The notes beneath the pieces are model-generated. The model did not search any database, had not been told where the DNA came from, and saw only the letters and a list, made by a program, of their open reading frames with translations. The position numbers were made by a program, and so were the translations under genes. A stretch of 11,443 nucleotides of DNA from an uncultured Pseudomonadota bacterium. GTDB lineage: Bacteria > Pseudomonadota > Gammaproteobacteria > Steroidobacterales > Steroidobacteraceae. Position 1 is the stretch's first letter; each line of letters starts with the position of its first letter. Where the stretch lies: NCBI GenBank assembly GCA_946479515.1, contig CAMLGF010000096.1, positions 1-11,443 on the forward strand, in the 5' to 3' direction. Shown piece after piece: positions 1 through 11,443 of this stretch.

Positions 1-2
1 CC

Positions 3-803
3 ACCGACTGGCGACATGCCAACCCGCGGGCAGTGGCACGCATGCCCGAGGATACCCTGGCGCCGTTACTGGTCGCGCTGGCGCTCACGGCCGTATTCAC
101 CGCCGGATTACTGCATGCGCCCGGCTGGCTCGCGCTCACCAGCCTGGTCACGCTGGCCCTGATCGGCTACTGGCTCTGGCCGAAACACTCCGCGACGGGT
201 CCGGGAAGCGGCTCCGCCGAACTGATCCGCCGCCTGGGCTGGGACGAGAAGCGTGGCACCCAGGCCATGGCCTGGCTCATCGTCACCGAAGCACTGCTGT
301 TCGTGTCCCTGTTCTTCTCTTACTACCTGCTCGCCGCCCACAATCCGAAGTGGCCGCTGGACGCGCCGCCAAAACTGAAGCTGGCGCTCGGCATGCTCGT
401 GATCCTGCTCGCCAGCAGCGCCTGCCTGGAAGTCGCCCGTCATTTCGGCAAGCGTTCCCGGAATGGACCGCTGCGCATCGCCATCCTCTGTGCCGTGCTG
501 TTGGGCGTGCTGTTCCTCGGACTGCAGACGCTGGAGTATCGCGACCGGCTGAAGTCGGTCCTGCCGACCAGCGATGCCTACGGATCCATCTTCTACGTGA
601 TCACCAGCATCCACGGCCTGCACGTGCTGATCGGGCTGCTCATGCTGGCGTACGTGGCATGCCTGCCGAGACCCAGTCCGGGTGCGGATCGGCCGCCGCA
701 TCGTCCGCTGCACGCCGCCGCCCTCTACTGGCATTTCGTCGACGCCGTATGGATCTTCATCGTGCTGCTGCTGTACCTCGTGCCGCACTGGCGGTCCGCA
801 TGA
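3..803 (+). CDS. Cytochrome c oxidase subunit III region, 5' partial (possible subunit I/III fusion)
   Basis: This is an inner-membrane subunit of a heme-copper terminal oxidase. Seven hydrophobic segments are visible at about nt 63-113, 126-179, 264-332, 378-446, 471-539, 582-665 and 720-791. The last two carry typical subunit III motifs, SIHGLHVLIG and YWHFVDAVWIF. Possible starts are GTG 33 and ATG 42, but neither has a clear Shine-Dalgarno and the frame stays open to the window edge. The first two helices, introduced by ARMPEDT, resemble the end of a caa3-type subunit I rather than the start of a free five-helix subunit III. I therefore treat the gene as running off the left edge, perhaps as a subunit I/III fusion; a standalone seven-helix subunit III is the alternative. 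The stop overlaps the next start (ATGA). The subunit III assignment is firm; the fusion is inference. Confidence 0.85.
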   Translation, partial: TDWRHANPRAVARMPEDTLAPLLVALALTAVFTAGLLHAPGWLALTSLVTLALIGYWLWPKHSATGPGSGSAELIRRLGWDEKRGTQAMAWLIVTEALLFVSLFFSYYLLAAHNPKWPLDAPPKLKLALGMLVILLASSACLEVARHFGKRSRNGPLRIAILCAVLLGVLFLGLQTLEYRDRLKSVLPTSDAYGSIFYVITSIHGLHVLIGLLMLAYVACLPRPSPGADRPPHRPLHAAALYWHFVDAVWIFIVLLLYLVPHWRSA

Positions 804-1195
804 GCACGCGATGCCTGATGTTCACGCTCGTCGCCAGCGCACTGCTCGCGGGCTGCGGCCACTCGGGCCGGCGTCACACCGGCTACGACGGCCAATTCAC
901 CGCGCAGGTGGCCGGTGGCGCCGCCGAGCGCGGCGGCCGGCTCCTGGTGCAACACGGCTGCGGCGCCTGCCATACCGTGCCCGGGCCGTACCGGGCGCGT
1001 GGCCGCGTCGGCCCGCCGCTCGACTTCTTCGCCGAGCGCTCGTTCATCGGCGGACAGCTGCCGAACCGGCCCGAAACCCTGGTGCGCTGGATCATGGACG
1101 CGCCGAGCCTGATTCCCGCCACCGCGATGCCCAATCTGAACGTCAGCGAACGGGATGCGCGCGACATCGCGGCCTATCTCTACACGCTGCACTGA
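800..1195 (+). CDS. c-type cytochrome lipoprotein, mono-heme
   Basis: This is a 131-residue cytochrome c with a lipoprotein signal: a short hydrophobic stretch ending in LLAGC puts the lipidated cysteine near residue 19. The protein should therefore be anchored on the periplasmic side of a membrane. The single heme site is CGACH at residues 54-58. Met110 in TAMPNL is the likely distal ligand, followed by the usual C-terminal helix (DIAAYLYTLH). The start is ATG 800, overlapping the preceding stop (ATGA); ATG 821 would lose part of the signal. The domain resembles the cytochrome domain fused to subunit II further down the operon. Lying between an oxidase gene and an alcohol dehydrogenase gene, it probably carries electrons into the oxidase or is an extra oxidase subunit. 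The exact partner cannot be read from the sequence. Confidence 0.9.
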   Translation: MSTRCLMFTLVASALLAGCGHSGRRHTGYDGQFTAQVAGGAAERGGRLLVQHGCGACHTVPGPYRARGRVGPPLDFFAERSFIGGQLPNRPETLVRWIMDAPSLIPATAMPNLNVSERDARDIAAYLYTLH

Positions 1196-1207
1196 TCCGA
1201 GGTAACC

Positions 1208-3016
1208 ATGCGCACGCCGTCGCTAGCCAGTCTCGCCCTCGCCGGCATCTGCGGTTTCATGAGCTCGCCGTCCTCGGCGCAGACGGCCGCGCCGCCGGCG
1301 GGCATTCGCATGATCTCGCCGCTTCCCGGCGCGGAATGGACGCTGCCCAACGGCGACCTGGCCAACACGCGTTACAGCACGCTCGAGCAGATCACCACCG
1401 CCAACGTCGGCGAGCTGAAGCCGGTGAACGTCATGCACACCGGCATTCCGCAGGGACACGAGGGCAGCCCGCTCGTGGTCGGCCACACGATGTACGTCGT
1501 GACGCCGTTTCCCAACAAGCTCATTGCCATCGACCTGGAGGATCCCAAGGGACCGGTCAAGTGGAGCTATGCGCCGCATCCCGATCCGCGCTCGGTTGGC
1601 ATCGCCTGTTGCGACGTGGTGAACCGCGGCGCCTCGTACGCCGACGGCAAGATCATCTACAACACGCTCGACGCGCAGACCGTGGCGGTGGATGCCAGGA
1701 CCGGCAAGGAAGTGTGGAAGACCCGCCTCGGCGACATCAACAAGGGCGAAACCATCACCATGGCGCCGCTGGTGGTCAAGGACAAGGTGATCGTCGGCAA
1801 CTCCGGCGGCGAGCTCGGCGTGCGCGGCTGGGTGACCGCGCTCGCGGTGGCCGATGGCCGCGTACTCTGGCGTGCGTACAACACCGGTCCCGACGCCGAC
1901 GTGAAGATAGGCGCAGGCTACCGGCCGTTCTACGACAAGGATCGCGGCAAGGATCTCGGCGCGACCTCCTGGCCCGCCGAACAATGGAAGTTCGGCGGCG
2001 GCACGGTTTGGGGCTGGATCTCCTACGACCCGGAACTGGACCTCATCTACTACGGCACCGGCAACCCCGGTGTCTGGAACCCCGACCTCAGGCCCGGTGA
2101 CAACAAGTGGTCGTGCAGCATCATCGCGCGCGACCCCGATGACGGCGAGATGCGCTGGGCGTACCAGATCTCCGCGCACGACGCCTGGGACTACGACGAA
2201 ATCATGGAGAACGTGCTCGTCGACATGCCGTTCGGCGGCAAGACGCGCAAGCTGCTCATCCACCCGGGCCGCACCGGCTTCGTGTTCGTGCTCGACCGGG
2301 CCACGGGCGAGCTGCTGTCGGCCGAGAAATTCATGCCGTCCACCAACTGGGCCGATGGCTTCGACCTGAAAACCGGCAAGCCCCGCGAGAACGCCGGGAA
2401 GCGCACGCGCTACGGCGTGGTCACGCGCGATATCTGCCCCTCCTCGACCGGCGCCAAGGAATTCGTACCGTCGGCGTTCTCGCCACGCACCGGGCTGCTG
2501 TACATCCCGGCACACAACACCTGCATGGACTACGAGGGAATCGAGGCTAACTACATCGCCGGCACCCCTTACCTCGGCGCCAGCGTCAAGATGTATCCCG
2601 GCCCGGATGGCTTCCAGGGCGAACTCATCGCCTGGGACCCGGTGGCGGGCCGCGCCGCGTGGGGCGTGAAGGAAGAGAAGTTCCCGGTGTACAGCGGCGT
2701 GCTCGCCACGGCCGGCGACGTGGTGTTCTACGGCACCATGGACGGCTGGTTCCGGGCGCTGGACGCGCGTTCGGGCAAACTACTCTGGCAGTTCAAGACC
2801 GGCTCCGGCATCGTCGGCAACCCCATCACCTTCCGCGGCCCCGATGACAAGCAGTACGTGGCCGTGTATTCCGGCATCGGCGGCTGGATGGGCGCGGTCG
2901 CGCTGCCGTCGGTATCCGAGGACGATCCATACGCGGCGCTCGGCGTGGTCGGCGCCATGAAGGGCATCAAGCAGCACACCTCACCCGGCGGAGCGCTCTA
3001 TGTCTTCGGCCGCTAG
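1208..3016 (+). CDS. xoxF: PQQ-dependent alcohol (methanol/ethanol) dehydrogenase, lanthanide-type XoxF-like
   Basis: This 602-residue periplasmic quinoprotein would oxidise a primary alcohol to its aldehyde and pass electrons to a cytochrome c. A signal peptide ends near SSAQTA (about residue 25), and the rest is an eight-bladed PQQ propeller of normal family length. Visible active-site residues are the vicinal cysteines C134-C135, metal ligands E202 (in GGELGVRG) and N286 (in GTGNPG), and catalytic D328 in WDYD. D330, two residues on, is the extra acidic ligand characteristic of lanthanide enzymes (XoxF, ExaF/PedH); calcium MxaF has alanine there. Ligand spacing (84, 42, 2) fits the family. 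A GAGGT lies 4 nt before ATG 1208. Motifs such as HEGSPLVVG and VVTPFPN point to XoxF rather than ExaA. Substrate and XoxF subclade are not decidable here. Confidence 0.93.
   Translation: MRTPSLASLALAGICGFMSSPSSAQTAAPPAGIRMISPLPGAEWTLPNGDLANTRYSTLEQITTANVGELKPVNVMHTGIPQGHEGSPLVVGHTMYVVTPFPNKLIAIDLEDPKGPVKWSYAPHPDPRSVGIACCDVVNRGASYADGKIIYNTLDAQTVAVDARTGKEVWKTRLGDINKGETITMAPLVVKDKVIVGNSGGELGVRGWVTALAVADGRVLWRAYNTGPDADVKIGAGYRPFYDKDRGKDLGATSWPAEQWKFGGGTVWGWISYDPELDLIYYGTGNPGVWNPDLRPGDNKWSCSIIARDPDDGEMRWAYQISAHDAWDYDEIMENVLVDMPFGGKTRKLLIHPGRTGFVFVLDRATGELLSAEKFMPSTNWADGFDLKTGKPRENAGKRTRYGVVTRDICPSSTGAKEFVPSAFSPRTGLLYIPAHNTCMDYEGIEANYIAGTPYLGASVKMYPGPDGFQGELIAWDPVAGRAAWGVKEEKFPVYSGVLATAGDVVFYGTMDGWFRALDARSGKLLWQFKTGSGIVGNPITFRGPDDKQYVAVYSGIGGWMGAVALPSVSEDDPYAALGVVGAMKGIKQHTSPGGALYVFGR
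2990..2993 (+). promoter_or_regulatory. Shine-Dalgarno of xoxJ inside the end of xoxF
   Basis: GGAG lies 6 nt before ATG 3000, within the last codons of the dehydrogenase gene. It supports ATG 3000 as the true start despite the 17-nt overlap, and suggests translational coupling of the two proteins. Confidence 0.6.
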
Positions 3017-3902
3017 CAAGGCGTGGCTGACGTTGCTGGTGACGGCGTTGCTGCTCGCGGCGATGGACTATCACTTCTGGACGCGCGACCGCCCGCTCAT
3101 CCGCCTGATGCCGGAGGCGCATGCCGGCGAGGCCGCCGCGCCGGACGGCGCCGCGGCCGGCCCGTTGCGCGTGTGCGCCGACCCGAACAACCTGCCGTTC
3201 TCGAACCTGCGCGGCGAAGGCTTCGAGAACGAACTGGCGCGCATCGTGGCACGCGAGCTCGGCCGCGAACTGCAATACACCTGGTGGCCGCAGCGCCGTG
3301 GCTTCATCCGCCAGACGCTCAAGGCCGGCCGGTGCGATCTGGTCATGGGCGTTCCGGCCGGCTTCGAGCTGGTCGAGCCGACCGCGCCTTACTACCGCTC
3401 GGGCTACGTGTTCGTCACGCGCGCCGACCGGCATCTCGACCTCAGCGGCTTCGACGATCCGCGGCTGGCCACGCTGGTGATCGGCCTGCATGCCATCGGC
3501 GACGACTACGCGAACGTGCCCCCGGCCCAGGCGCTGGCCGCGCGCGGCATAGTCGCGCACATCCGCGGCTACAGCATCTACGGCGACTACTCGCGCCCCG
3601 ATCCGCCGCGCGAGCTCATCGACGCGGTGGCGCGGGGCGAGGTGGACGTGGCCATCGCCTGGGGGCCGCTGGCCGGCTACTTCGCCGGCCGCGAGGGTGT
3701 GCAACTAGCGCTCACTCCGGTCGCCGGCATGAACGATCGCGACCCGGCCATGCAGTTCGCCATCAGCGCCGGCGTGCGCCATGGCGACCATGCCCTGAAG
3801 GCCGCGGTCGAGCGCGTACTGGCGGTGCGCCGCGCCGAGATCGATGGCGTGCTGCGGCGGTTCCACGTACCGCTCCTGGAAAGTGCGGAGGCCCCGTCAT
3901 GA
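3000..3902 (+). CDS. xoxJ: XoxJ/MxaJ-like quinoprotein dehydrogenase-associated periplasmic binding protein
   Basis: This 300-residue protein has the fold of an ABC-transporter solute-binding protein, but belongs to the family found beside PQQ dehydrogenases. An N-terminal hydrophobic segment (about residues 8-22) exports or anchors it. The mature domain opens with RVCADPNNLPFS (residues 57-68), followed by YTWWPQRRGF and AGRCDLVMGVPAG, all typical of that family. C59 and C112 could form a disulfide. No permease or ATPase gene is adjacent, which argues against transport. In methylotrophs XoxJ/MxaJ is thought to help activate or assemble the dehydrogenase, and the genetic coupling to xoxF fits this. 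The start at 3000 is supported by an internal Shine-Dalgarno, and the stop overlaps the next start (ATGA). The family is clear; the biochemical role is inferred. Confidence 0.9.
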   Translation: MSSAASKAWLTLLVTALLLAAMDYHFWTRDRPLIRLMPEAHAGEAAAPDGAAAGPLRVCADPNNLPFSNLRGEGFENELARIVARELGRELQYTWWPQRRGFIRQTLKAGRCDLVMGVPAGFELVEPTAPYYRSGYVFVTRADRHLDLSGFDDPRLATLVIGLHAIGDDYANVPPAQALAARGIVAHIRGYSIYGDYSRPDPPRELIDAVARGEVDVAIAWGPLAGYFAGREGVQLALTPVAGMNDRDPAMQFAISAGVRHGDHALKAAVERVLAVRRAEIDGVLRRFHVPLLESAEAPS

Positions 3903-4351
3903 AACCCATGTTGTTCGCGATCATGCTGATCATCGCATTGGCCTGCGCCGCGGCCGTGGCGCAGACGCCGGCGGGCGCCGAACGCGGCGTCGCTGCGACC
4001 GCCGGGCGCGAACCGTTGGGACCGGTGCCCGGCCCGGGACGCGTGCGTCCCGCACTCAGCAATCCCTTCGCTGGCGACGAGTCCGCGCGGGTGTCCGGAC
4101 GCAAGCTGTTCGTGGCGTTCAATTGCTCGGGGTGTCATGGCGGCCATGCGGGCGGCGGCATGGGCCCGAGCCTGCGCGACGAGGACTGGATGTATGGCAG
4201 CGAACCTGCCGACCTCTTCGATTCGATCGCCGAGGGACGCGCGCACGGCATGCCGGCCTGGGGCACGCTGCTGCCGCCACAGTACATCTGGCAGCTGGTC
4301 ACCTACATCCAGTCGCTGCGCACGCCGCAGGAGGCGGATCCACCGCAATGA
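3899..4351 (+). CDS. Small periplasmic cytochrome c, XoxG position
   Basis: This is a 150-residue mono-heme cytochrome c. A signal peptide (hydrophobic residues about 4-20, then AVAQTP) is followed by a Pro/Gly/Ala-rich stretch of some 40 residues before the heme domain. Heme binding is CSGCH at residues 76-80, and the likely distal ligand is M118 in GMPAWG. The C-terminal helix IWQLVTYIQSL is typical of class I cytochromes. GGAGG lies 7 nt upstream of ATG 3899, which overlaps the xoxJ stop (ATGA). Immediately after xoxF-xoxJ, it holds the place of XoxG, the dedicated electron acceptor of XoxF. I infer that it shuttles electrons from the dehydrogenase to the oxidase. It is somewhat short for known XoxG, so I give no symbol. 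Confidence 0.88.
   Translation: MKPMLFAIMLIIALACAAAVAQTPAGAERGVAATAGREPLGPVPGPGRVRPALSNPFAGDESARVSGRKLFVAFNCSGCHGGHAGGGMGPSLRDEDWMYGSEPADLFDSIAEGRAHGMPAWGTLLPPQYIWQLVTYIQSLRTPQEADPPQ
4329..4334 (+). promoter_or_regulatory. Shine-Dalgarno (AGGAGG) before coxB
   Basis: A full AGGAGG lies within the end of the preceding cytochrome gene, 13 nt from ATG 4348. The spacing is longer than optimal, but no other candidate start for the oxidase subunit is better placed, so it supports ATG 4348. Confidence 0.45.
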
Positions 4352-5391
4352 ACCGCCCGCCGCGATTCCCATGCTCGGGCCGCGCCGCGCTCGCCGCAGG
4401 GCTGGCGCCGCTGCTGTGCAGCGCCTGTTCGGGTCCGCAGGACTATCTACACGGCGCCAACCACGCGGCGCGGGAGATCGCCACCTTCGGCTGGTGGGTG
4501 CTGGTCTGCTTCATGGTCGCGTCGCTCGTGGTCTGGGTCCTGCTCGCGCGCATCCTGCTGAGATTCAGCGACGGCAGCTTCGCCGCCCACGAGCCGGCCG
4601 AAGAGGAACGCGGCCGCCCGTGGATACTCATCGGCGGTCTCGGCATTCCGGCGGTGGTCTTCTTCACGTTCTTCTTCCTCATGTTCGGCCCCCTCGAGGC
4701 CACACCGGCGCACGAGGGCGGCGGGCGCCCCGCCGACATCCGGATCACCGGCCGCCAGTGGTGGTTCGAGGCCGAATACCAGGGAAGCACGCCGGACCAG
4801 AACGTGCGCGTGCCGACCGAGTTGCACATACCGGTCGGCGTGCCGGTCGACATCGCCGTGCAGACCCGCGACGTCATCCATTCGTTCTGGATTCCCCGGC
4901 TGCACGGCAAGGTGGATCTGGTTCCCGGCCGCGTGAACCACCTGCGCATCGTCGCGGATCAGCCGGGCGTGTATCGCGGCGAGTGCGCGGAATTCTGCGG
5001 CGTGCAGCATGCGCACATGCGCATCGAGATCGTGGCGGAGCCGCGTGATTTCTACCAGGCGTGGCTGGCCGCGCAGCGCGCGCCCGCGAAGCAGCCGGCG
5101 CCCGACGCCGCGCAACTGGCGCAGGGACGCGAGGTGTTCCTGTCCGCGGCCTGCGCGCTCTGCCACACCATCCGCGGCACCGGCGCGCACGGCCTGCTGG
5201 GACCGGATCTCACGCACGTCGGCAGCCGCGCGCGCATCGCCGGCGGCTCGTTCGAGAACAACGCCGCGAATCTCGCGGCGTGGATCACCGATGCACAGTC
5301 GCTCAAGCCCGGCGCGCAGATGCCCAGCCTGCGGCAGCTCGAAGGCGCGGATCTGCGCGCGCTCGTGGCCTATCTACAGAGCCTGCGCTGA
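4348..5391 (+). CDS. coxB: Cytochrome c oxidase subunit II with fused cytochrome c domain (caa3-type)
   Basis: This is the electron-entry subunit of a caa3-type oxidase, 347 residues. The N-terminus carries a signal with a possible lipidation cysteine (C27 in CSACSGPQ; the lipobox is not classical). Two transmembrane helices follow at about residues 45-70 and 91-114. The periplasmic cupredoxin domain contains QWWFEAEY and a complete CuA set: H178, C213, E215, C217, H221 and M224, in the order CxExCGxxHxxM. A C-terminal class I cytochrome c domain has CALCH at residues 269-273 and M325 as probable distal ligand. Subunit II with a fused cytochrome is the hallmark of caa3 oxidases, which accept electrons from small cytochromes. 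Its position downstream of the dehydrogenase genes, away from the other oxidase gene, is unusual. ATG 4348 overlaps the preceding stop (ATGA). Confidence 0.95.
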   Translation: MNRPPRFPCSGRAALAAGLAPLLCSACSGPQDYLHGANHAAREIATFGWWVLVCFMVASLVVWVLLARILLRFSDGSFAAHEPAEEERGRPWILIGGLGIPAVVFFTFFFLMFGPLEATPAHEGGGRPADIRITGRQWWFEAEYQGSTPDQNVRVPTELHIPVGVPVDIAVQTRDVIHSFWIPRLHGKVDLVPGRVNHLRIVADQPGVYRGECAEFCGVQHAHMRIEIVAEPRDFYQAWLAAQRAPAKQPAPDAAQLAQGREVFLSAACALCHTIRGTGAHGLLGPDLTHVGSRARIAGGSFENNAANLAAWITDAQSLKPGAQMPSLRQLEGADLRALVAYLQSLR

Positions 5392-6443
5392 TGACGCGAC
5401 CCGCCACGCTATTGCTGATCGCCGGCCTGGTGAGCGCAAACCCCGCGTGGCCGGCCGCCTGTCGCGAAGTGATCGTCAGCAATGAAGGCTCGGGCGACAT
5501 CGCCATCGTCGATCCGGTGGCGGGCGCGGTCACGGCGCGGATCCCGGTGGGCAAGCGGCCGCGCGGCATGGCGCTGTCCCCCGATCGGCAGCTGCTGTAC
5601 GTCGCGCTCAGCGGCTCGCCGGCGGCGCCGCCCGGCGTCGACGAATCGACACTGCCGCCGGCCGACAAGCGGGCGGACGGCATCGGCGTGGTCGATCTCG
5701 TCGCGCGTCGCCTGCTGCGCACCTTCACCGGCATCTCCGATCCCGAACGCGTCGCAATCGGCGCCAGCGGCGCGCGCCTATACGTCGCCAGCGAGGATCA
5801 GGGCACGGTGGTCATGTTCGACAGTGCCAGCGGCGAGCGCCTGGCGCAGACGCCAGTCGGCGGCGAAGCGGAAGGCGTCGATCTCGACCCGGCCGGCGTG
5901 CAGCTGTATGCCACGTCCGAGGCCGAGGGCACGGTCACGGTGCTCGACGCGAAGTCGCTGGCGGCCATTGCGACGCTGCCGGTGGGTCGGCGTCCGCGTT
6001 CGACGGCCTTTTCTCCCGACGGGCTGCGCGCCTATGTGGCCAACGAGGCCAGCGCCAACATCAGCGTGATCGACACGATTTCCCTGCGCAGCCTGCCGCC
6101 ACTGTCGCTGCCGGTGGGCAACCTGCCCATGCGCATCGCCGTGCCGCCGGCGGGCTCGCTGCTGTACGCGAGCACGGGCCGCGGTCGCGACATCGTCGCC
6201 ATCGAACCCGTGTCCGGGCGCATCGTCGAGCGCGCGCAATCCGGCGATCGGCCCTGGGACATCGCCATCAGCCCCGATGGTGCCGAGCTGTACGCGGCCA
6301 ACGGTCCGTCCAACGACCTCAGCGTGTTCGACCTGCCGGAGCTGAAACTGCGCGCGCGCATCCACACCGGCGAGAAACCCTGGGGCGTGGCCTGCCGCGA
6401 CAACTGGTGGACGCGCGAAGGCATCGGCGGAAGACCGAAGTGA
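5391..6443 (+). CDS. Secreted YVTN beta-propeller protein, PQQ-catabolism-associated type
   Basis: This 350-residue protein has a signal peptide (about residues 1-22, ending near WPAA) and a chain of about seven YVTN/YncE-like repeats. Typical repeat pieces are VGKRPRGMALSPD, LYVASEDQGTVVMFD, AYVANEASANISVID and LYAANGPSNDLSVFD. The set of repeats should close into a seven-bladed periplasmic propeller. An insertion after the first blade (VDESTLPPADKRADG) matches my memory of the family annotated as PQQ-dependent catabolism-associated beta-propeller. It has no heme motif and no recognisable catalytic residues, and its function is unknown; it could be a scaffold or accessory factor for the dehydrogenase. 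ATG 5391 overlaps the coxB stop by one base (TGATG), so it is probably the last gene of the operon. Confidence 0.88.
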   Translation: MTRPATLLLIAGLVSANPAWPAACREVIVSNEGSGDIAIVDPVAGAVTARIPVGKRPRGMALSPDRQLLYVALSGSPAAPPGVDESTLPPADKRADGIGVVDLVARRLLRTFTGISDPERVAIGASGARLYVASEDQGTVVMFDSASGERLAQTPVGGEAEGVDLDPAGVQLYATSEAEGTVTVLDAKSLAAIATLPVGRRPRSTAFSPDGLRAYVANEASANISVIDTISLRSLPPLSLPVGNLPMRIAVPPAGSLLYASTGRGRDIVAIEPVSGRIVERAQSGDRPWDIAISPDGAELYAANGPSNDLSVFDLPELKLRARIHTGEKPWGVACRDNWWTREGIGGRPK

Positions 6444-6453
6444 TCCGGAGCGC

Positions 6454-6477
6454 CACCACGGCGACGACGCCGCGGTG
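6454..6477. terminator. Hairpin after the respiratory operon, terminator-like without a T-tract
   Basis: Arms CACCACGGCG (6454-6463) and CGCCGCGGTG (6468-6477) pair over ten positions with one A-C mismatch around the loop ACGA. The hairpin starts 10 nt after the propeller stop codon. No run of T follows, so intrinsic termination is uncertain; it could instead stabilise the 3' end of the message or be chance in GC-rich DNA. Confidence 0.35.
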
Positions 6478-6524
6478 AATCGACACAGTTGCCCGACTCG
6501 TCACGTGTCTGGTAAACCGGCCCC

Positions 6525-7379
6525 ATGCAAGTCATCGAGCAGCGCCGAAGGGATCTGGGCGGCTTCGAGGTGGGGCGCGTCCTGCCGTACACGCGGCGCC
6601 ACATGGTCGGGCCGTTCATATTCTTCGATCACATCGGCCCCAAGCAGTTCGCACCCGGCATCCCGCCCAGCATCGACGTGCGGCCGCATCCGCACATCGG
6701 TCTGGCGACGGTCACCTATCTGTTCGCGGGCGAGATCATGCATCGCGACAGCCTGGCATTCGAGCAGGCCATTCAGCCCGACGAGGTCAACTGGATGGTG
6801 GCCGGGCGCGGCATCACGCACTCGGAGCGATTCGAAAAGGCGCGCGCCGAGGGCGGGCCGCTGCACGGCATCCAGGCGTGGGTGGCATTGCCGGTGGAGC
6901 ATGAAGAGACCGAGCCCGCGTTCTCTCACCACAGCGCGGCCGATCTGCCGTTCCACGAGCACGACGGCGTGCGCACGCGCCTGCTCGCGGGCGAAGCCTT
7001 CGGGCTGCGCGCCGGTGTGCGGACACACTCGCCGCTGTTCTACGCGCATTGGGAAGTGGATCGCGGCCGGCGCGTGGCGCTGCCCGATGTGTACCCCGAG
7101 CGCGCGGTCTACGTCGCGGCGGGCGAAATCTCGGTGGGCGGGCAGACCCTGGGCGCGGGCCACATGGCGGTGTTCGAGCCCGGGGAAGACAGCACGCTCG
7201 AGGCCTCGGCACGCGCGACCCTGATGGCGCTCGGCGGCGAGCCGGTGGGCGAGCGCTACATCGAATGGAATTTCGTGTCCTCCTCGCAGGAGCGCATCGC
7301 ACAGGCCAAGGCCGACTGGAGAGCGCGGCGCTTCAAACTACCCGACCTCGACGACCAGGAATTCATCCCGCTGGCATGA
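6525..7379 (+). CDS. Pirin family protein (bicupin)
   Basis: This 284-residue protein has the pirin double-cupin layout and usual length. The N-terminal cupin carries the four metal ligands expected for pirins: H55 and H57 in RPHPHIGL, then H99 and E101 in GITHSERFE. MVAGRGITHSE and GGPLHGIQAWVALP are family signatures. The C-terminal cupin (about residues 165-245) lacks a recognisable metal site, as is usual. Pirins bind Fe or similar metals; some have quercetin dioxygenase activity and others act as redox-sensitive regulators, so the role here is open. It should be cytoplasmic, with no signal peptide. ATG 6525 has no good Shine-Dalgarno and lies 81 nt after the preceding stop, so it probably has its own promoter. 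The stop overlaps the following ATG (ATGA). Confidence 0.92.
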   Translation: MQVIEQRRRDLGGFEVGRVLPYTRRHMVGPFIFFDHIGPKQFAPGIPPSIDVRPHPHIGLATVTYLFAGEIMHRDSLAFEQAIQPDEVNWMVAGRGITHSERFEKARAEGGPLHGIQAWVALPVEHEETEPAFSHHSAADLPFHEHDGVRTRLLAGEAFGLRAGVRTHSPLFYAHWEVDRGRRVALPDVYPERAVYVAAGEISVGGQTLGAGHMAVFEPGEDSTLEASARATLMALGGEPVGERYIEWNFVSSSQERIAQAKADWRARRFKLPDLDDQEFIPLA

Positions 7380-7647
7380 GGGCGCTGGCACTTCTCATCG
7401 CCGGCATACTCGCGGGTTGCGCGGCCGCCCCGACGGCCCTCAAGGGCCGCTTCAGCGTGCGCCAGGTGCCGTACACGCCCGACAGCGGATCCATCGCCAT
7501 CCGCTGCGGCAGGCTCATCGAACCGAGGCCGAGACGCAGCGACAGGCGCTGGAGAACGCCGCGGCCACCCTCGCCGACATCTCGGTGCTCGAGCGCGTCG
7601 ACGTGGTCATCAAGGGCGGCCTGATCTTCAAGCTGCCGGTCGATTGA
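7376..7647 (+). pseudogene. Remnant of an amidohydrolase-family lipoprotein gene (internal deletion and frameshift)
   Basis: An ATG at 7376, overlapping the pirin stop, opens a frame with a clear lipoprotein signal (LLIAGILAGC). It continues to SIAIRCGRLI, which resembles the first strand of amidohydrolases (normally followed by DG). From about nt 7520 that frame becomes arginine/serine-rich nonsense and ends at 7624. In the +1 frame, sensible sequence resumes and ends at 7647 with ADISVLERVDVVIKGG, which resembles the C-terminal strand of imidazolonepropionase-like amidohydrolases. The metal-binding core of some 350 residues is missing. I read this as the two ends of one gene joined by a deletion near 7520-7525. 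A short overlapping lipoprotein ORF (7376-7624) is the less likely alternative. The amidohydrolase identity rests on two short motifs. Confidence 0.5.
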
Positions 7648-7663
7648 GTCGCGGCTGATCCTG

Positions 7664-8554
7664 CTAGTCGAAGTACTTCCGATACTTCGCCGGCATGTCG
7701 GGCAGCGCGCGGATCTGAAAGCGGCGGTAGAACACCTCGGCCGCCTCGCTCTGGAACTGCAGCCTGCCGCCGGTCATCGGCACCCAACGTTCGCCGCCGG
7801 CGTCCTGGTAACGATGGCGCGCCTCTTTCAGCGCCATCACCACCTTGCCATTCACGATGTGCAGGCAGCGGTCCTGGATGCAGACCAGGTCGAGCTGGTT
7901 CCATTGGCCGGGGCGGTCCTCGTCGGAACCCGCGAGCGCGTGATTATTGGGTGGCACGAATTCCGTCCACGGCGCCGAGGGATTCCATCGCGGCGCATCC
8001 GCGCCCTGCGCGCCGGCGACGCCCGGCGTCGCACGCAGGGTCATGGCCGACGTGGCCTGCGTCCAGTATTCGCCGAGACCATGCTCGATGACCTGGAACT
8101 CGTGCGACAGCGCCCAGGTCTTCCAGTAGTCCACGCCGAATGGGCCGCGGCTGTGATAGAGGATGCCCGAGTCCTTGAGCTCGGCGAGCCGGGGCTGCCA
8201 TTTCTTCTCGCCCCATTTGAATTGCACGCGGAAGTGGTAGTTCGAGAACTCCTCGCGGGTCACGAGGCAACCGTAGTACTCGCCGCTCACGCGCAGCACG
8301 GGCTCGCCGGATTCCCGGCGCACGGTGAACACATCCTGCCCGGGCGGATTCAGGCCCACGGGCTGCAGGTCGGGAGGCGCCGTACCCTCGATCACGCTCA
8401 GGATCCGGTCGCCGCGATAGCTCAGCCACACGTCGAAGTTCGCGAGCTTGTCGTCCAGCAGATCGCGCCAGACCGGGGTGGCAGGGTCAGCGGCCGCGGT
8501 GGCGCTGAATGACAGCGTGGCCAATGCCACGCACAGGGTGACCGTGCTCTTCAT
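7664..8554 (-). CDS. Secreted DUF1080 (3-keto-disaccharide hydrolase-like) protein
   Basis: This 296-residue protein has a signal peptide (MKSTVTLCVALA through SATAAADP, cleaved near residue 22), followed by a single DUF1080 jelly-roll domain with a concanavalin-like fold. Family motifs in order are NYHFRVQFKWGEKKW, DSGILYHSRGP, SHEFQVIEHG, WNQLDLVCIQDRCLHIVNG and the C-terminal LQFQSEAAEVFYRRFQI. Family members include hydrolases of 3-ketoglycosides and many uncharacterised secreted proteins; substrate and catalytic residues cannot be assigned here. The start is ATG at 8554-8552. The frame is open further upstream, but that extension is arginine/cysteine-rich, overlaps the regulator gene and would hide the signal peptide. 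It follows the regulator stop by 16 nt on the same strand, so the two are probably co-transcribed. It is convergent with the amidohydrolase remnant. Confidence 0.9.
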   Translation of the reverse strand: MKSTVTLCVALATLSFSATAAADPATPVWRDLLDDKLANFDVWLSYRGDRILSVIEGTAPPDLQPVGLNPPGQDVFTVRRESGEPVLRVSGEYYGCLVTREEFSNYHFRVQFKWGEKKWQPRLAELKDSGILYHSRGPFGVDYWKTWALSHEFQVIEHGLGEYWTQATSAMTLRATPGVAGAQGADAPRWNPSAPWTEFVPPNNHALAGSDEDRPGQWNQLDLVCIQDRCLHIVNGKVVMALKEARHRYQDAGGERWVPMTGGRLQFQSEAAEVFYRRFQIRALPDMPAKYRKYFD

Positions 8555-8570
8555 GTGCCGCGAGCATACT

Positions 8571-9437
8571 TCAATGCACCTCGGCCGACGCGCCGGCAAT
8601 GGCATCGACAATGTCCGCGACCATGCGATCACGCACCGATGCGGCCTGGGCCGCAGCTTCGACATAGCGGGCCGACCACAGCACCCGCCCCTGCACATCC
8701 ACGAGCTGGGCGCTGACGCGCAGCTGGTCGCGCGCCTGCCGCACGCTGCCCGTCACCTGGAATCGCACCGCCAGCACGCGCGCGACCTCGCCGGGCTGTG
8801 CCAGCACGCCCTTGTACACCGCCACGTCTTCCCAGCGGCGCACCGCCAGCGTCGATTGGCGCACCAGCGCCGCGATGAGATCCTGGGTGAAGCGATCGGC
8901 CTCGGCCGCCAGCGCGGGATCGTCACTCTGGTTCTCGAAGGGCAACACGGCCAGGGCCGGTTGCAGGGTAGCTTGTGCCACGCGCGGCCCGCGCGACGTG
9001 ACGAACCAGATGACGGCGAAGGCAACGGCCAGCACCAATGGCGCGATCAGGCCATACATCCAGCGAAAACGCAGCGGCCGCACGCCGTGCGCATGGCGCC
9101 GCTCGGGGGCCGCCGCCGCGGGATCGAGCAGCGCGCCTTCTTCCAGGCTGTATGCGATGAGACGGTGATCCACGTCGCCCAGTACGCGGCGCAATTCGCC
9201 GATGCTCTGCACGAGCTGATCGTCCGAGCCGATGATGCCGGGCCACACGGCGCCGATGATCTCCTCGGTCGGAACGCGGCGCCCCGGCCGCTCCGCCAAG
9301 TAACTGAGGACCGCGAGCGTCTGCGGCCGCAGCGGAATCTCGCGTCCGTCGCTGGTCAGCCGGCTGCCGGGCAGATCGAGCAGGTAGCGGCCGAAGGTGA
9401 TGCTGCGCGGCGGTTCGCCGACCTCGTCGTGAGCCAT
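8571..9437 (-). CDS. CadC-like membrane-anchored winged-helix regulator
   Basis: This 288-residue protein has three parts. Residues about 13-105 are an OmpR/CadC-type winged helix (ITFGRYLLDL, LRPQTLAVLSYLAERPG, EIIGAVWP, LVQSIGELRRVLGD). Residues about 126-147 form one transmembrane helix. Residues about 160-285 are a periplasmic TolB/FlgO-like domain (LAVLPFENQSDDP, VTGSVRQ, LRVSAQLVDVQGRVLWSARY). This architecture is typical of one-component sensors that bind DNA while embedded in the inner membrane. The wing normally ends with a GRGYRL-type motif; here it reads DHRLIAYSLEEGALL, so the wing is degenerate or divergent. ATG 9437 is chosen over an upstream TTG at 9473. The probable target is its own operon with the DUF1080 gene, perhaps also the divergent EamA gene. 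The signal it senses is unknown. Confidence 0.85.
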   Translation of the reverse strand: MAHDEVGEPPRSITFGRYLLDLPGSRLTSDGREIPLRPQTLAVLSYLAERPGRRVPTEEIIGAVWPGIIGSDDQLVQSIGELRRVLGDVDHRLIAYSLEEGALLDPAAAAPERRHAHGVRPLRFRWMYGLIAPLVLAVAFAVIWFVTSRGPRVAQATLQPALAVLPFENQSDDPALAAEADRFTQDLIAALVRQSTLAVRRWEDVAVYKGVLAQPGEVARVLAVRFQVTGSVRQARDQLRVSAQLVDVQGRVLWSARYVEAAAQAASVRDRMVADIVDAIAGASAEVH

Positions 9438-9453
9438 CGCGTCGATGAGAACG

Positions 9454-9489
9454 CATCCGGCTTTGCCGCGCAATCATCCGGACGGCAAA
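9454..9489. promoter_or_regulatory. Candidate operator in the divergent regulator/EamA intergenic region
   Basis: TTTGCCG (9462-9468) and CGGCAAA (9483-9489) form a perfect 7-bp inverted repeat. CATCCGG occurs twice as a direct repeat (9454-9460 and 9475-9481). Corresponding positions in each pair lie 21 bp apart, two helical turns, as expected for a dimeric winged-helix protein contacting one DNA face. The site lies just upstream of both divergent starts. That it is the binding site of the adjacent CadC-like regulator is inference. Confidence 0.4.
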
Positions 9490-9508
9490 CTACGCCGCCA
9501 TTCTCCGC

Positions 9509-9513
9509 AGGGG
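9509..9513 (+). promoter_or_regulatory. Shine-Dalgarno of the small EamA gene
   Basis: AGGGG lies 8 nt before ATG 9522. This fixes ATG 9522 rather than the ATG at 9528 as the start, and argues against the much longer upstream-open frame that runs antisense to the regulator. Confidence 0.55.
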
Positions 9514-9521
9514 CTCACCTC

Positions 9522-9941
9522 ATGCAAATGATCTGGTTGGGCATCGCCATCGCCGCCACCGTGGGTTACCACGTAGTGCTGAAACTCACGCCCGTGGGCG
9601 CGAACCCCTATCTGTCACTGGCCGTGACCTACGCCGTGACCACCGCCGCCTTCCTGGCGGTCTATGCCCTCGCGCCGGGCCCGGCGCCTTTCAAGAGCGC
9701 GCTCGGCGACCTCAACTGGACGGCGCTGGCGCTGGGGGCGATCGTCGTCTTTCTCGACTTTGGCTTCCTGATGCTCTACCGCGGCGGCTTCGACGTGAGC
9801 CTCGGGCAGCTCATCACCCAATCCGCCGGCGCACTGCTGCTGCTGCTGGTCGGTGTGGCGTTCTTCGCCGAGAAGCTCAGCCTGGTGAACGTCGCCGGCA
9901 TTCTGCTGTGCGTAGCCGGCCTGTGGCTGATCAATAAATAG
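9522..9941 (+). CDS. Small EamA/DMT-family membrane protein, four helices
   Basis: This 139-residue, very hydrophobic protein has four predicted transmembrane helices, at about residues 1-18, 28-48, 65-85 and 95-137 (the last block holding a helical pair or one long hairpin). The C-terminal part, AGALLLLLVGVAFFAEKLSLVNVAGILLCVAGLWLI, matches the conserved end of an EamA repeat, where a glutamate-lysine pair precedes the last helix. Full EamA transporters have two such repeats (about 290 residues); this is a half-size form, which would have to act as a dimer, as in small multidrug resistance proteins. Substrate is unknown. It is divergent from the regulator gene across an 84-nt region and may be controlled by it. 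The stop is TAG 9939-9941. Confidence 0.85.
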   Translation: MQMIWLGIAIAATVGYHVVLKLTPVGANPYLSLAVTYAVTTAAFLAVYALAPGPAPFKSALGDLNWTALALGAIVVFLDFGFLMLYRGGFDVSLGQLITQSAGALLLLLVGVAFFAEKLSLVNVAGILLCVAGLWLINK

Positions 9942-9948
9942 GGACATT

Positions 9949-9970
9949 CCTCGTTTTCCAGGAAAAGGGG
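9949..9970. repeat. Short palindrome between convergent EamA and metH genes
   Basis: TTTTCC (9954-9959) and GGAAAA (9961-9966) are perfect inverse complements around one base. With the flanking CCTCG and GGGG, the arms extend to about ten pairs with a bulged G. It lies in the 50-nt gap between converging genes but has no T-run outside the stem on either strand, so it is not a classical terminator. The wider sequence GGGACATT...AAAAGGGGAC resembles a dispersed motif I recall from gammaproteobacterial genomes; only one copy is in this window. Confidence 0.45.
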
Positions 9971-9991
9971 ACGCGCCTGCGCCCCCCGGCT

Positions 9992-11443
<1,452 letters not shown>

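Follow-up and report, generated by a model that had tools for sequence, protein, structure and literature searches.

Can an alcohol dehydrogenase of the lanthanide type have an oxidase of its own? This question is raised by contig CAMLGF010000096.1 (assembly GCA_946479515.1) of an uncultured gammaproteobacterium of the family Steroidobacteraceae, whose 11,443 nucleotides (positions 1 to 11,443, forward strand) were analysed as a whole and are called the window below. According to open reading frame (ORF) and profile searches, seven closely packed genes with short overlaps occupy its plus strand at 3-6443 and place xoxF, encoding a pyrroloquinoline quinone (PQQ)-dependent dehydrogenase, between genes for subunits of a caa3-type cytochrome c oxidase. 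The cluster is real and mostly ordinary; its gene order and a fused oxidase subunit are what is unusual, and what deserves following up is how strongly XoxF and oxidase are inherited together.

XoxF and its clade

The xoxF gene (1208..3016, plus strand) codes for a protein scoring 635 bits against TIGR03075, the methanol/ethanol family of PQQ dehydrogenases, well over the curated cut-off of 480. Two aspartates, Asp328 and Asp330, lie within its motif DAWDYDEIME, the second two residues after the first. The former we take to be the catalytic one. The latter, whose position is held by Ala in the MxaF chain 4tqo, is the lanthanide-type Asp. The enzyme may depend on a lanthanide and probably uses methanol as its substrate.

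Related loci were collected by scanning genome contigs with XoxF, and the best 80 of 299, hence those members of the family nearest to the query, were searched for eleven gene types. In a tree containing five solved references, the XoxF proteins linked to cox genes formed two clades, A (11 rows, support 100/100) and B (18 rows, 100/99), joined at 95/83. The window XoxF lay in subclade A of this A + B ensemble, apart from the XoxF1, XoxF2 and XoxF5 references; XoxF5, MxaF, 4mae and 7o6z all fell outside. Although 4mae, presumably a XoxF2, was the closest chain in the PDB, its position outside A + B led us to reject its clade as that of the window. A + B further included four proteins without COX1 (subunit I) in view (L002, L024, L029 and L036, the view of the last being truncated) and two, L008 and L182, with COX1 on the opposite strand. 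The label XoxF3 used here for this clade rests on the gene content given in PMC10875860, the tree having no named XoxF3 reference sequence.

Subclade A was further distinguished by the residues E-I-M-E directly after the lanthanide-type Asp (window 2189-2209, residues 328-334), the first E being replaced by S or A in L017 and L019; most other XoxF proteins of the set displayed x-V/I-N-E at this site. A motif ending in ME was found in 26 of the 80 loci as well as in the window, and it accompanied the gene order called layout A below.

Oxidase genes next to xoxF

Flanks were considered sufficient when at least 4.5 kb upstream and at least 5.5 kb downstream of xoxF were in view, as was the case for 53 of the 80 loci. 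In 47 of these 53, a same-strand COX1 gene lay no more than 8 kb from xoxF. The six others were L002, L008, L024, L029, L049 and L079, the last two of which fall outside the XoxF3-type clade. Among the 27 loci with truncated flanks, COX1 was visible in 13. Adjacency of xoxF and COX1 is not confined to the window contig and is beyond chance. One metagenome-assembled genome (MAG) labelled as Actinomycetes (L019) had a cluster COX1 nested among Acidobacteria, perhaps as a result of a binning error or a transfer.

Co-inheritance of dehydrogenase and oxidase

At 49 loci, XoxF shared 22 of 46 splits with COX1 and 23 of 46 with COX2, while the two oxidase subunits shared 27 of 46 with each other; shuffled labels gave 0.2-0.3 shared splits on average. 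The corresponding distance correlations were 0.90, 0.84 and 0.87. RpoB was used as a control in 25 genomes, that of L047 being a fragment of 376 amino acids. In this set, distance correlations amounted to 0.87 for XoxF-COX1, 0.85 for XoxF-COX2 and 0.79 for COX1-COX2, against 0.24, 0.17 and 0.21 for XoxF, COX1 and COX2, respectively, with RpoB. Likewise, XoxF and COX1 had 14 of 22 splits in common, XoxF and RpoB 7, and COX1 and RpoB 6. The partial Mantel correlation of XoxF and COX1 given RpoB was 0.866, a value attained in 0 of 999 permutations. Since the agreement between XoxF and COX1 far exceeds that with RpoB, dehydrogenase and oxidase have moved together, often apart from the species. The initial annotation had tentatively assigned a caa3-type oxidase to the dehydrogenase, and both the recurrence among loci with sufficient flanks and this co-inheritance bear out such a tie for the XoxF clade. 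In two loci, L183 (Sinorhizobium medicae pSMED03) and L187 (Bradyrhizobium p195_1), the plasmid bearing xoxF and the complete set of three oxidase subunit genes is typed as conjugative.

The association was also specific within genomes. Twelve genomes not labelled as MAGs contained 32 PQQ alcohol dehydrogenases over the family cut-off, and 65 of their 72 COX1 matches were used. COX1 lay on the same strand within 3 kb of 14 of the 32 dehydrogenases. The other 18 were all outside clades A and B: eight had their nearest COX1 on the contig at least 64 kb away, and the contigs of the remaining ten showed no COX1, though one might in principle lie beyond a contig end. Because these genomes hold 2-10 COX1 matches each, the cluster oxidase is an additional oxidase.

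Gene orders

Two arrangements dominated, which are circular permutations of one another. Layout A, to which the window belongs, reads cox1-cox3-(hyp)-(ctaG)-cytc-xoxF-(xoxJ)-xoxG-cox2, and layout B reads xoxF-(xoxJ)-xoxG-cox2-cox1-cox3-(hyp)-(ctaG)-(cytc). Counted by the side of xoxF bearing COX1, layout A was the rarer (18 of the 80 loci) and layout B occurred in 41; L070 had COX1 on both sides, and 20 loci had no same-strand COX1. All 18 layout A loci displayed the XoxF motif DYD[ESA]IME and belonged to one XoxF subclade, while 40 layout B loci were without it (L073, where the motif scan gave no result, is counted here) and L001 possessed it. Culturable strains with layout A include Azohydromonas australica and Modicisalibacter luteus. 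The tie between layout A and the motif may not be absolute, since the truncated locus L022, without the motif, looks similar to layout A, with cytc directly before xoxF, cox2 after it and COX1 out of view. The order of the window, with COX1 upstream of xoxF, is therefore found elsewhere. The initial annotation had seen in it a dehydrogenase module inserted between oxidase genes. XoxF does lie between the genes for subunits III and II, but the arrangement is more aptly seen as the commoner order, xoxF-J-G-cox2-cox1-cox3-ctaG-cytc, circularly permuted.

Layout B loci from Gemmatimonadota carried COX1 from the lineage that contains the layout A loci, so the order changed within this lineage. Side-by-side clusters as in L070 would be the kind of intermediate from which a deletion could yield layout A. 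L070 itself is better read as two adjacent clusters, one of which, the first, is truncated where the contig ends; a recent tandem duplication was rejected, its two COX1 copies belonging to different lineages. An Opitutus MAG (L042, 7381-12386) displayed two successive cox1-cox3 sets after a single cox2, with COX1 copies in different parts of the tree.

The oxidase genes of Bradyrhizobium p195_1 are upstream, yet in B order, and Methylocella tundrae possesses two convergent half-clusters. Altogether, the gene set was seen in at least four arrangements. Given this variable order and the convergent halves of M. tundrae, one operon is not obligatory, and the survival of linkage through several rearrangements speaks for selection keeping XoxF and oxidase together. 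CtaG and the small hypothetical gene were absent from the whole window, including the place after subunit III, whose gene overlaps that of a cytochrome c by 4 nt; they may be encoded upstream, beyond the contig end. As ctaG was not seen in the DNA in view of 11 of the 18 layout A loci, it is not a fixed part of this layout.

The fused subunit I-III gene

The first ORF of the window (3..803, plus strand) is open from base 3, at the contig end, and its 5' end lies beyond the contig. Its residues 1 to about 66 correspond to a subunit I tail and residues from about 82 to 260 to subunit III (PF00510, E 1.4e-23). The tail was recognised by the similarity of residues 6-66 to the C-terminus of subunit I from Azohydromonas L004, where this subunit stands alone (50%, 62 amino acids). 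Moreover, residues 1-262 aligned at 57% with residues 589-850 of P0122, a fused COX1-COX3 protein of 855 amino acids that was found by searching a database for fusions of this kind (22 reported from 7992 scored candidates). Since the subunit I tail continues in frame into subunit III, the ORF represents the 3' portion of a gene in which I and III are fused. It had been annotated as an oxidase subunit III region, which holds for the PF00510 part and misses the tail; subunit I, expected further upstream, thus has its end inside the window. Both the tail match and the coverage of residues 1-262 by P0122 excluded a stand-alone subunit III gene starting from base 33 or 42. Subunit I is seen on the contig solely as this C-terminal tail, its haem-copper ligand region being off the contig. 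A single ORF for COX1 and COX3 was also encountered in a Myxococcales MAG (L003), the one fused pair out of 54 in the 80 related loci, so the fusion is rare among them.

Other genes of the window

The remaining cluster genes are all on the plus strand. A lipoprotein c-type cytochrome (800..1195) matched PF00034 above the cut-off, with a LAGC lipobox and a CGACH haem site identified by eye; its family also adjoins xoxF in relatives. Downstream of xoxF come a XoxJ-type periplasmic binding protein (3000..3902; TIGR03871, 298 bits, cut-off 212) and a XoxG-type c-type cytochrome (3899..4351), the presumed electron acceptor of XoxF. The latter was over the cut-off of PF13442 and displayed a CSGCH site by eye, and it scored 45.8 bits against TIGR03872 (MoxG), below the cut-off of 147.8.

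CoxB (4348..5391) is a subunit II with a CuA site and a C-terminal cytochrome c domain, as in caa3-type oxidases (TIGR02866, 148.6 bits, cut-off 147.7; PF00116 and PF00034). Its closest solved chain was the Thermus caa3 subunit II (2yev_B), in an alignment spanning both domains. The nearest subunit II proteins besides the window's own displayed 70-77% identity and include P0008 (Gammaproteobacteria) and P0010 (Steroidobacteraceae). In 369 genomes of the class of L020, the subunit II query gave matches of at most 46% apart from the centre genomes, and in 369 genomes of the class of L001 the XoxF query gave at most 63%, again apart from the centre genomes.

The last gene (5391..6443) encodes a seven-bladed propeller of the YncE/YVTN type (PF10282), and YncE-type genes are near xoxF in other loci too. 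It had been called a PQQ-associated propeller; as judged from sequence it appears related to that class, but its score against the corresponding model TIGR03866 (170.5 bits) was below the cut-off of 287.3. The six junctions are, in order, an overlap of 4 nt, a gap of 12 nt and overlaps of 17, 4, 4 and 1 nt, so that all seven co-directional genes and every junction were as the initial annotation described them. One promoter-like site was observed in the window versus 0.8 expected by chance, which is compatible with a single transcript without proving one.

Outside the cluster, a pirin gene (6525-7379, plus strand) follows the propeller gene after a gap of 81 nt. Two short plus-strand pieces in different frames, at about 7376-7647, resemble by eye the two ends of an amidohydrolase, a lipoprotein N-terminus and a C-terminus, with its middle absent; neither matched Pfam, and they look like a remnant gene or an assembly slip. 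A gene for a B12-dependent methionine synthase (9992-11443, minus strand) is cut by the contig edge, leaving its C-terminal portion.

Comparison with known systems

The pairing of XoxF3 with cox genes is already known. PMC10875860 describes XoxF3 co-localised with CoxI-III, CtaG, CytC, XoxG and XoxJ in 12 Acidobacteria genomes, with YncE in a figure legend, and cites the mini-review of Keltjens et al. 2014 for a small number of xoxF3 operons with cox and ctaG. A review (PMC11845868) also names cox and CtaG in the legend to a figure of gene clusters. CoxII, CoxIII, CytC, XoxG and XoxJ are likewise co-localised in the window, and CoxI is represented by its C-terminal tail alone, so that XoxF, XoxG, XoxJ, CoxI-III and CytC are common to both. 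The window differs in that I and III are fused, in that neither ctaG nor the small hypothetical gene is present as far as the sequence reaches, and in its permuted order, a comparison limited to the text of that paper, which gives no gene order, and exclusive of its Fig. 5. Neither the permuted order, nor a fused I-III subunit in a cluster of this kind, nor the tree agreement was mentioned in the full texts covered by a literature search; figures and Keltjens 2014 were outside this coverage.

Layout B plasmids, Mesorhizobium sp. pB1-1-8 and Sinorhizobium medicae pSMED03, resemble the window in having xoxF, xoxJ, a c-type cytochrome gene and three oxidase genes tightly packed on one strand. Their order is instead xoxF-J-G-coxB-ctaD-cox3-hyp-ctaG-(cytc), the circle being opened elsewhere, and cytc was not found on pSMED03. 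Like the window, the caa3 oxidase of Thermus thermophilus (2yev) combines a fused I+III polypeptide with a subunit II that ends in a cytochrome c domain, but the sequences are distantly related and the likeness concerns the proteins, not the genomic neighbourhood. A XoxF5-type system on a Sinorhizobium meliloti plasmid shares XoxF, a cytochrome c, a XoxJ-type protein and identical active-site residues with the window. In contrast, oxidase subunit genes are absent from its surroundings up to 10 kb away, and it branches with XoxF5 references.

A dedicated branch of alcohol respiration?

We read the cluster as a dedicated XoxF-XoxG-caa3 branch of alcohol respiration in the periplasm, bypassing the bc1 complex, and give this reading a probability of roughly two in three. 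XoxF, with PQQ and a lanthanide ion, would oxidise an alcohol, probably methanol, and XoxG would accept the electrons. These would reach the cytochrome c domain and CuA of subunit II, directly or via the lipoprotein cytochrome c, and then the haem-copper centre of subunit I, where O2 would be reduced and protons pumped; quinone and the bc1 complex would be bypassed. Expression of the genes would presumably be matched, and they would be kept as a single module, inherited and transferred as a unit.

Several points weigh against this proposal. L002, whose XoxF is a close relative, has no oxidase genes within 10 kb, next to 7 COX1 matches elsewhere in its genome that were not placed in the tree, and the COX1 of L001, another close XoxF relative, belongs to a different caa3 lineage; the pairing can therefore be lost or swapped. 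L024 retains the cytochrome c alone of the oxidase-side genes, and in L008 the oxidase set is divergent, lying on the opposite strand. All 61 cluster rows fell into one COX1 clade (70 rows, Shimodaira-Hasegawa-like approximate likelihood ratio test 99), which also took in nine of the 32 other COX1s; among the eight of these nine that were looked at, two adjoin a PQQ dehydrogenase and six are in regions without xoxF. The cluster oxidase is consequently a branch of a wider caa3-type family. Linkage alone could also produce matching trees. Finally, the amounts of XoxF3 that Methylocella silvestris made under the conditions tested were very low (PMC9291206), and XoxF3 enzymes were without biochemical data in 2024 (PMC10875860).

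Some of these points would equally suit XoxF and caa3 oxidase being linked without being dedicated, as a transferable package in which XoxG would donate to the general cytochrome c pool and the oxidase would accept electrons from every donor. The clusters on pSMED03 and p195_1 would be expected from such a package, as would the oxidases without a xoxF neighbour in the COX1 clade and loci such as L002 and L024, which have XoxF, XoxG and XoxJ but no cox1, cox2 or cox3 within 10 kb. We nevertheless consider it rather unlikely, since the oxidase neighbour is confined to this XoxF clade, with none in view for the 18 other PQQ dehydrogenases of the 12 genomes, since XoxF and COX1 trees agree about as well as those of COX1 and COX2, and since the gene set persists despite its reshuffled order. 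A stable supercomplex, in which XoxF, XoxG, the lipoprotein cytochrome and the caa3 oxidase would form one particle that electrons never leave, might account for the co-inheritance and for three cytochrome c modules beside the oxidase (lipoprotein, XoxG and subunit II tail, two of them predicted to be membrane-tethered), but it seems improbable, as tree agreement does not demonstrate contact and XoxF is known to bind XoxG transiently in other systems.

The dedicated branch invites a bolder and doubtful idea, namely that XoxF3 and the caa3 oxidase might be a co-evolving, horizontally moving and physically coupled unit with which a recipient could burn alcohol with O2 without recourse to its own bc1 complex or general oxidase; the permuted lineage, with I and III fused in some members, might then be a step towards a single integrated machine. 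According to PMC10875860, XoxF3 is spread over several of the phyla that inhabit soil and weathered rock, and PMC5103831 names a PQQ methanol dehydrogenase as the most abundant protein of one soil proteome. From the neighbourhood and the tree agreement relative to RpoB, we predict that the XoxF3 clade has its own oxygen-reducing partner. If this is true, alcohol oxidation in these bacteria would be wired unlike that of methylotrophs whose XoxF has no oxidase neighbour.

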